DNA of 64,000 nt from a bacterium (GTDB taxonomy: Bacteria > Bdellovibrionota_G > JALEGL01). A program made the translations under genes and the position numbers. The notes below the pieces were generated by a model, which searched no databases, was not told the DNA's origin, and was given only the letters and a program-made list of their open reading frames with translations. Shown piece by piece: positions 42,736 to 61,365 of this stretch. The stretch spans positions 301,087 through 365,086 of the forward strand of contig JALEGL010000006.1 in NCBI GenBank assembly GCA_022763185.1, written 5' to 3'. Position 1 is the first letter of the stretch; the number at the start of each line of letters is the position of its first letter.

Positions 42736-44046
<1,311 letters not shown>

Positions 44047-44074
44047 GGGGCATCTAAGCTCTTAATTTTTAAGC

Positions 44075-44164
44075 GGAGGATTGGCCGAGTGGTTGAAGGC
44101 ACCGGTCTTGAAAACCGGCAAACGGGCAACTGTTTCGGGGGTTCGAATCCCTCATCCTCCGCCA
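44075..44164 (+). tRNA. tRNA-Ser(UGA) with encoded CCA
   Basis: A complete type II tRNA: acceptor stem GGAGGAT / ATCCTCC, anticodon stem CCGGT / ACCGG with loop CTTGAAA (anticodon TGA), a long variable arm, T-arm with GGTTCGAATCC, discriminator G and an encoded CCA at 44162-44164. Located directly behind serS. Confidence 0.97.
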
Positions 44165-44200
44165 TAAAAATTTGATCCCTTTAGGGATGAAATTTTTATG
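44163..44200. repeat. Near-perfect palindrome at the 3' end of tRNA-Ser(UGA)
   Basis: Two 18-base arms (44163-44180 and 44183-44200) are inverted copies with one mismatch and only two bases between them; the arms begin CATAAAAATTT and end in AGGGAT. The first two bases are the CA of the tRNA CCA end. It may act as tRNA terminator or processing signal, or as a cruciform-forming site. Confidence 0.75.
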
Positions 44201-44237
44201 TTGAGTTGTTTGAGATTTGAACGCATATCCCGGGTTA

Positions 44238-44332
44238 GGAGGAACAAAAAGCACTGCTTTTTGTGACGGAATGCTGGGAGGTTTGCCGAAGAGGCAAACC
44301 GAGACAGTGCGAAAATCCCTCATCCTCCGCCA
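44238..44332 (+). repeat. tRNA-like element: degenerate tRNA-Ser copy with two hairpins and CCA end
   Basis: GGAGGA (44238-44243) can pair with TCCTCC (44323-44328), followed by discriminator G and CCA (44330-44332), copying the acceptor end of the tRNA-Ser(UGA) upstream. The last 17 bases (TCCCTCATCCTCCGCCA) are identical to the tRNA 3' end. The body is not a tRNA: it holds hairpins ACAAAAAGC/GCTTTTTGT (44244-44264, 3-base loop) and GGTTTGCC/GGCAAACC (44280-44300, 5-base loop). No anticodon arm is visible. It may be an attachment-site remnant or a transcribed tRNA mimic. Confidence 0.6.
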
Positions 44333-44642
44333 CTTTTTCACCTCAAAATTGTAGTAAGGGTAAGTTCGGTTGTTCTTAGTAGATTGTGCTTGGATTCGAA
44401 CCCAGCTCCCTCTGGTCGCGGTTCGTCTATTTTTTGTGTGGGCTCCGCCCACATGGCTCATCCTCCATTGTTGCCAAATGATAGTAGTGATTGTTATACT
44501 GTAATGCTATCCAAGATAAAGAGTTAGCTGAGGTGCCAGGCATATTTTGTAACCAGCGTTCGCCTATAATGAGCTTGAATGCAGTTATCAGATACTAAAA
44601 CTTAATCGTTGACAGAAACAACGCATGGGTTATTGAAAGCGG
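44333..44642. other. Decayed spacer with further tRNA-derived repeats, upstream of dut
   Basis: 310 bases without a gene. It contains a minus-strand T-arm motif (GGATTCGAACCC at 44392-44403), a 7-bp hairpin TGTGGGC/GCCCACA with a TCC loop (44437-44453) and a third copy of the tRNA-Ser(UGA) 3' segment CTCATCCTCC (44457-44466). The 3' part carries the dut leader. A long antisense frame across this region is not a real gene. Confidence 0.6.
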
Positions 44643-45059
44643 ATGAATGTTAAGATTAAGAAATTAACCAATGAAGCTGTGATCCCTGCTTATGCCAAAG
44701 AAGGTGATGCCGGGATGGATTTAACTTGTGTGTCTGTTGATCAAACAGAGATGTTTGTTGAGTACGGTACGGGTTTGGCCTTGGAAATACCTACCGGCTA
44801 CTGTGGTCTTTTGTTTCCCCGCAGCAGTGTTTCTAAAACGGGTCAATCTTTATGCAACTCTATTGGATTGGTGGACTCCGGTTATAGAGGTGAGCTGCGT
44901 TTACGCTACTATGCACGCAACACAGATATAACGTATAAACTAGGGGATAAAGTAGGGCAATTGTTGATTATGCCTTACCCATCAATCCAATTTGAAGAGG
45001 TCTCTGAATTAAGCAGTTCTGAACGTGCTCAAGGGGGCTTTGGTAGCACGGGTAACTAA
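44643..45059 (+). CDS. dut: dUTP diphosphatase (dUTPase)
   Basis: Trimeric enzyme that hydrolyses dUTP to dUMP and keeps uracil out of DNA. The five family motifs are visible: AGMDL, PRSSVSKTG, the GLVDSGYRGEL substrate motif, KVGQLLIMP and the C-terminal GGFGSTG that closes over the active site. Length is 138. The dipeptidase gene begins one base after its stop, so the two are coupled. Confidence 0.95.
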   Translation: MNVKIKKLTNEAVIPAYAKEGDAGMDLTCVSVDQTEMFVEYGTGLALEIPTGYCGLLFPRSSVSKTGQSLCNSIGLVDSGYRGELRLRYYARNTDITYKLGDKVGQLLIMPYPSIQFEEVSELSSSERAQGGFGSTGN

Positions 45060-60714: not shown

Positions 60715-61023
60715 TCATGCAAATGCTTGAGTATACTCATCCAGCCAGCAAAATGTATTGACTAATTTCATCTGCTTAAAGTGTTGCAGGGGGATTTCCA
60801 GCAGCTTGGGGTTGGAAATAACCAGCGCATCAAACTGGCTGTCTGTTAGCGGCACGTTAATCAAGAACAGAACAGCACGCTCTGCAATCTGAGCATCTTG
60901 GCGCAGTAATTCCTCAGCCTTTGTTTCATCGATGTCTGCTGCAAAGTCCTCGTCGTTTCTGACAACTTGACCGTAACCGATTGTGGGATAACCCGCCGGA
61001 CAAAAATAAACAGTCCAATTCAT
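60715..61023 (-). pseudogene. Phage-type lysozyme (GH24) remnant
   Basis: A 102-codon frame that matches the middle of phage endolysins: FCPAGYPTIGYGQVV, then EAxxLLRQDAQIAERAV-type helix (KAEELLRQDAQIAERAV) and VPLTDSQFDALV. The N-terminal catalytic-Glu region and the C-terminal GGxxxxGLxxRR region are missing or unrecognisable, and the frame degrades after QFDALV. It lies inside the arsenic island, between arsR and the tRNA-Ser repeat, and points to a phage or phage-like source. It could be annotated as a short lysozyme CDS, but activity is unlikely. Confidence 0.6.
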
Positions 61024-61173
61024 TTCCTGTGATAGGTTTCACTTTTCAGTGTTCTTATAACTTTGAGATTTTTGCTTCCATATTCAAAAACGCCATGGTT
61101 TTGTTCATGCTTGAGGTCTTTCTGCGCATGATTATCAGCGTAAAGACTTCAAAGCCATATTGCTTGAACGAAT

Positions 61174-61200
61174 CGCGCCTTAGGCGCGAGGTTCGAATCC
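61174..61200 (+). repeat. Hairpin/T-arm repeat, right copy
   Basis: CGCGCC/GGCGCG (61174-61188, TTA loop), 3 bases, then TTCGAATCC (61192-61200). It matches copy A at 58032-58058, and the similarity continues into the following TCT-rich stretch. It lies 71 bases before the tRNA-Ser(GGA) 3' end. Confidence 0.6.
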
Positions 61201-61270
61201 GTCTCTAGAAAGGTTTGAGGCTTAGGGATTAGTCGTTAAAGGCCATTGAAACGGAACGTCCATGTTTCAA

Positions 61271-61365
61271 TGGCGGAGAGAGGGGGATTCGAACCCCCGA
61301 AACGGAGGTTCTCTCCGTTTACTCGCTTTCCAAGCGAGCTCCTTCGGCCACTCGGACACCTCTCC
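61271..61365 (-). tRNA. tRNA-Ser(GGA) with encoded CCA
   Basis: A complete type II tRNA on the minus strand: acceptor GGAGAGG with complement near the 3' end, anticodon stem CTCGC / GCGAG with loop TTGGAAA (anticodon GGA), variable arm CGGAG / CTCCG, T-arm GGGGGTTCGAATCCCCC, discriminator G and encoded CCA (61271-61273). Its 3' end is duplicated at 57980. Confidence 0.97.

Follow-up and report, generated by a model that had tools for sequence, protein, structure and literature searches.

The closest described counterparts of the element reported here are the RtT repeats, which have been known from E. coli for three decades and are still viewed mainly as by-products of tRNA operons. Three 178-bp repeats lie behind E. 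coli tyrV, each closing with AATCCTTCCCCCACCACCA, the last 19 bases of tRNA-Tyr; RtT is annotated as a small RNA processed from the tyrT transcript, and the annotated 3′ end of RttR lies exactly at the CCA of the tRNA-end copy. Within the repeat, an inner segment (GGGGAAGGATGAGAAGCTTCGA) corresponds without gaps to the inverted T-arm region of tRNA-Tyr, apart from a changed loop. We found RtT matches in 61 of 296 Enterobacterales genomes, with up to 11 copies per genome. The 30 loci that were read lie mostly behind tRNA-Tyr, tRNA-Pro, tRNA-Ser (four kinds) and tRNA-Lys, nearly all of them carry an 18–19-nt copy of the end of their own host, and in 20 of 22 cases the inverted segment was a better match to its own host than to other hosts. 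Some RtT copies have been linked to BIMEs (PMC2965389), and an effect of RtT on the stringent response has been reported (PMC4986893).

Here we analysed a 64,000-nucleotide stretch of a bacterium of the Bdellovibrionota_G (the window; contig JALEGL010000006.1 of assembly GCA_022763185.1, positions 301,087 to 365,086), in which tRNA-Ser(UGA) is followed by a 168-bp hairpin-rich unit (module A) and, in tandem, by a second one (module B). With a probability of roughly 0.72, the segment at 44238–44332 represents the 3′ part of an RtT-like repeat, namely a non-autonomous element that inserts at tRNA 3′ ends and that would yield a CCA-ended RNA if transcribed. Other known systems share some of its traits. 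Integrative elements of tyrosine recombinases (attL/attR) also show a direct repeat of the tRNA 3′ end, whereas the window module is about 165 bp long, lacks an integrase and is found at many dissimilar tRNAs. MITEs and other small non-autonomous mobile repeats are similarly small, dispersed, hairpin-rich and non-coding, but the modules lie strictly at tRNA 3′ ends and no terminal inverted repeats were seen by eye at the module ends. A duplication of 19–21 bp also exceeds the usual length for bacterial transposons. Archaeal casposons target tRNA 3′ ends with target duplication, as proposed for the modules, but they are large and carry Cas1 and terminal inverted repeats.

A repeat unit directly behind tRNA-Ser(UGA)

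The host gene lies between serS (42757–44046) and a dUTPase-like gene (44643–45059; gene names by inspection). The initial annotation had marked a 95-base segment behind it, and this segment is present, starting with GGAGGA at 44238, after 73 bases from the end of the tRNA, and closing with TCCTCCGCCA at 44332. The duplication of the tRNA 3′ end with its CCA also held, except that the shared block comprises 19 exact bases (AATCCCTCATCCTCCGCCA, 44314–44332) and not 17, and the two strong hairpins described in its body are real. The extent of the element had been drawn too short: the natural unit is 44165–44332, because a third hairpin immediately at the CCA end forms the start of the repeat family. 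The features of the locus are as follows.

44075–44164 (+): tRNA-Ser(UGA), host gene, CCA encoded (ARAGORN; Rfam RF00005, 60.9 bits)
44165–44332 (+): module A, complete RtT-like repeat unit of 168 bp, with copies behind eight other tRNA/tmRNA genes
44163–44200 (+): hairpin H1, terminator-like, abutting the tRNA 3′ end, its pairing beginning at the CA of CCA (refolding, scan)
44212–44222 (+): GAGATTTGAAC, similar to the inverted T-loop (GGATTCGAAC), weak in module A (copy alignment, inspection)
44244–44264 (+): hairpin H2, 9 bp with a 3-nt loop (fold, pair counts)
44280–44300 (+): hairpin H3, 8 bp with a GAAGA loop, sequence varying with compensatory changes (fold, pair counts)
44314–44332 (+): 19-nt exact copy of the tRNA-Ser(UGA) 3′ end, A58 to A76 (standard numbering), CCA included

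Folding of the 95-mer at 44238–44332 gave −37.8 kcal/mol (z −4.2 compared to shuffles). H1 refolded in 6/6 copies despite quite different sequences (z −4.5 to −7.7) and contains a terminator-like scan match at 44175–44188, while four of the eight pairs of H3 are changed on both sides, that is, the sequence differs and the pairing is kept. Taking H2, H3 and the closing stem together, 94.7% of cells were paired and six pairs were changed on both sides; none of 500 shuffles reached this covariation, and slid controls were 37–49% paired. Based on eight related sequences, the covariation is indicative, and it supports a structured RNA (or single-stranded DNA). A candidate pseudoknot between a loop and the 3′ part (CACTG/CAGTG) was dropped, as the hairpin closes over it.

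One body behind at least nine tRNA and tmRNA genes

The check suggested in the initial annotation, a search behind the other tRNA genes, proved decisive and was positive. A whole-genome search with the Ser(UGA) flank (BLAST, ARAGORN) returned related DNA at seven other places, adjoining tmRNA (two matches), Ser(GCU), Cys, Leu(UAA), Arg(UCG) and Leu(GAG), and reading of the tRNA flanks added a divergent copy behind Gly(GCC) and one cut short behind Val(UAC). The family thereby adjoins at least nine different tRNA/tmRNA genes of this genome, Ser(UGA) included. Most copies start right after the encoded CCA (the Leu(GAG) copy has no left part), complete copies are 163–169 bp long, and they have in common a core running from TAGGAGGAACAAAAAGCAYYGCTTTTTG to GAGACAGTGC, of which a divergent version is found behind Gly; a model of this core (R1) detected eight loci in the genome.

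The right ends track the host gene, reading AATCCCTCATCCTCCGCCA behind Ser(UGA), AATCCCCCCGCCTCCACCA behind tmRNA and CAAATCCCTTCTCCCGCTCCA behind Gly. End copies are exact over 19 nt for Ser(UGA), 19 nt for tmRNA and 21 nt for Gly, and imperfect for Leu(UAA) (one mismatch) and Cys (one deletion); the Arg and Leu(GAG) copies are decayed, and those behind Ser(GCU) and Val are cut short. When the ends of other tRNAs were compared to the module A flanks, the best match was 14/17. Overall, the body is conserved behind nine or more tRNA/tmRNA genes, and the intact copies end in the 3′ end of their own host.

Modules B and C

Two further modules share this position. Module B occurs twice in the window, once in tandem after module A and once in decayed form.

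44333–44466 (+): module B, in tandem after module A, aligning best to the tRNA-Ser(UGA) flank of the relative G003
44392–44403 (+): inverted T-arm of module B, GGATTCGAACCC
44420–44425 (+): direct GGTTCG of module B
44437–44453 (+): hairpin of module B, followed by ATGGC
44457–44466 (+): tRNA-end copy of module B, 10 nt, CTCATCCTCC
61160–61270 (−): decayed module B behind tRNA-Ser(GGA) (61271–61365), inverted T-arm kept, right end lost

Elsewhere in the genome, module B follows tmRNA (two in tandem), Leu(CAA), Asp, Glu (two), Phe and fMet. Its plan consists of an inverted T-arm, a direct T-arm half, a hairpin, (C)ATGGC and, where intact, an end copy of 10–15 nt. Module C, behind fMet, is 152 bp long with a 21-nt end copy. 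At the tmRNA locus (contig C6, 424430–425250), a module A is followed in tandem by two modules B; A and the first B carry a complete or almost complete copy of the tmRNA 3′ end, and the last unit is decayed. Counted from the reading of the tRNA flanks, about 15 of some 36 tRNA/tmRNA genes are followed by at least one module.

Two minor observations concern module B. Its minus strand gave a match to GA-cis RNA (window 44393–44467) of 22.9 bits, under the cut-off of 34.7 (E 0.027), which probably arose by chance from the T-arm-like hairpin. On the minus strand behind tRNA-Ser(GGA) and the decayed module B lies a lysozyme-like, phage-type ORF (60715–61023, by inspection), possibly an island remnant.

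Comparison with RtT

The window element and RtT/RttR (RF00391) follow the same plan, with a unit of 150–180 bp directly behind a tRNA gene that is hairpin-rich, occurs in tandem and uses several tRNA hosts. In both, the right end repeats 18–19 nt of the host tRNA 3′ end, and the copy begins with the same T-loop base (AATCC…CCA, 19 nt, in module A as in RtT), and an inverted T-arm segment is clear in RtT and module B and weak in module A. Like RtT, the window element lies directly 3′ of a tRNA gene and has a 3′ end formed by the copied host end with its CCA. Differences include the phylum and the occurrence of the window family behind tmRNA as well. An Rfam scan detected no family above cut-off for the window element, and the RF00391 covariance model (membership threshold 45 bits) had no match in the window at the gathering score and none up to E = 10 in 43900–44700. 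The element was therefore filed as working like RtT and not as a member of the family. Based on the common plan, the common start of the copy and the matched ends behind several tRNAs, we classify it as a new relative of RtT in kind, although unrelated to it in sequence.

Relatives, controls and wider scans

Four relatives were compared, three of the same order and one more of the phylum (G001 to G004). Flanks with a tRNA-end copy (score ≥12) numbered 5/35 in G001, 1/16 in G002, 2/18 in G003 and 10/45 in G004, compared to 7/35 in the genome itself; these counts for the relatives are score-based with part of the matches inspected, and the Arg(ACG) match of G004 may be due to chance. The same flanks tested with the ends of other tRNAs gave at most 0.8%, and three genomes outside the phylum had tRNA-end copies in 0/52 flanks. 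The module bodies of the relatives differ from module A and are mostly unrelated, with the same anatomy; the R1 core model found no locus in the four relatives, and G003 carries module B behind at least nine tRNAs. When 84,980 genomes were scanned for exact matches to the pattern of the conserved hairpin, six were obtained, none of them near a tRNA. Viral contigs gave none, plasmids gave no match, and phages gave only 24-base matches at chance level. A literature search returned no description of such elements outside RtT.

Two variants of the anatomy were observed. Behind Thr(CGU) of G001 (L077:1730–1759), the duplication reaches further into the tRNA, spanning anticodon arm to CCA, and hairpins precede it. 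At L056, L072, L151, L156 and L160 of G004, the tRNA genes have no encoded CCA and the modules open with a long hairpin; its 3′ arm repeats the tRNA 3′ end in inverted orientation, and a direct copy follows later.

Empty-site comparison

In G003, tRNA-Ser(UGA) is followed directly by module B, without module A. The window DNA after the module A copy aligned best, among the 18 G003 flanks, to precisely this flank (score 22, mean 10.7), which fits an insertion that placed module A between the tRNA and module B and duplicated the tRNA end. As the gene order at the tRNA-Ser locus differs in G003, the comparison has no shared landmarks beyond the tRNA and module B. The corresponding comparison for fMet gave no specific signal; we thus regard the evidence for insertion as moderate. 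Among the E. coli strains examined as an empty-site test for RtT, no clean unoccupied site was present. Unit number varies among strains, with one in SCU-316 and three behind tyrV in K-12, and in some strains other genes lie right behind tRNA-Tyr.

Proposed mechanism and alternative explanations

At the DNA level, we propose that the repeat integrates precisely behind the CCA of a tRNA gene, duplicating the terminal ~19–21 bp of that gene, such that the tRNA would stay intact and the duplicated end would become the right end of the module; inserted units could then multiply in tandem. At the RNA level, H1 would end or protect most tRNA transcripts, and read-through transcripts would be cut by the tRNA 3′-processing enzymes at the CCA of the copy, yielding a folded, CCA-ended RNA of roughly 130–168 nt, as for RtT/RttR in E. 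coli. Because H1 is terminator-like in several hosts, the module body may rarely be transcribed. No RVT_1 protein was found in the genome that could point to a reverse transcriptase as the mover, and tyrosine recombinases are few. The host-matched inverted segments of module B and RtT units need more than target duplication, either compensatory evolution or template switching. Only tentatively, and with the odds against it, we suggest that mobile repeats specific for tRNA 3′ ends form a widespread class with RtT as the sole named member, which would target any tRNA/tmRNA, leave a copy of ~14–23 bp and have its inverted segment re-templated to each new host.

The units could instead be functional RNAs, that is, co-transcribed and processed small RNAs or attenuators under selection that were spread by gene conversion and not by transposition. 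The covarying hairpins agree with this, as do the annotation of RtT as a tyrT-derived small RNA and its reported stringent-response effect (PMC4986893), but the truncated or decayed copies behind Ser(GCU), Val, Arg and Leu(GAG), together with families that differ between genomes to the point that R1 is silent in all four relatives, make this explanation less likely than not.

Far less probable is the remnant attachment site considered in the initial annotation, here taken as an attR left by an integrative element that used tRNA-Ser(UGA) and has since been excised or has decayed. Tyrosine integrases do recombine at tRNA 3′ ends, and integrase genes lie right behind two tRNA-Pro genes of this genome. 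A single island does not account, however, for one conserved ~165-bp body behind nine tRNA/tmRNA genes with unlike 3′ ends, and the modules, at 168 bp and with many targets, carry no integrase gene. Campbell-type integration at a new tRNA would moreover bring along the 3′ end of the old one and damage the gene, and therefore cannot alone give a differently matched end at every tRNA. A CCA-ended duplicate of a tRNA end near a tRNA gene is no proof of an integrated island.

The same annotation had alternatively read GGAGGA and TCCTCC as a rebuilt acceptor stem, making the segment a transcribed tRNA mimic for RNase P, RNase Z or the CCA enzyme. This pairing does form in the Ser(UGA) copy, yet GGAGGA is also found behind Cys, Leu(GAG) and Arg(UCG), whose tRNA ends do not match it, and reads GGAAGA behind Leu(UAA), with no match at this position in the divergent Gly copy. 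As a constant of the family, GGAGGA pairs with TCCTCC coincidentally and specifically for tRNA-Ser, which leaves the acceptor-stem mimic highly improbable, and in a search for a cloverleaf in the segment ARAGORN and RF00005 detected the true tRNA-Ser(UGA) only. What survives of the claim is the CCA-ended RNA, plausible by analogy to RttR, whose annotated end is the CCA of its copy. Chance similarity or a partial tRNA pseudogene, to which the sequence match alone might point, has a negligible probability given a 19-nt exact copy (~2e-9 expected in 450 nt) within a recurrent family whose copies match their own host tRNA.

Elements of the RtT plan in another phylum, unrelated in sequence and matched to each host tRNA, point to tRNA-linked repeats as a general kind and make the origin, movement and processing of such units testable.

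Separately, at two contig ends, tRNA-Pro(UGG) and tRNA-Pro(GGG) are each followed, at a distance of ~260 bp, by a tyrosine-integrase gene read towards the tRNA (contig C7, 53870–54289; contig C8, 202748–203167); the two integrase genes are very similar and represent one integrative element at two tRNA genes. In the window, a spurious 130-aa ORF (44069–44461, minus strand) runs antisense to tRNA-Ser(UGA) and modules A and B; owing to the tRNA-end copy, WRRMRD occurs in it twice, and it is of the kind stored in databases as a hypothetical protein.
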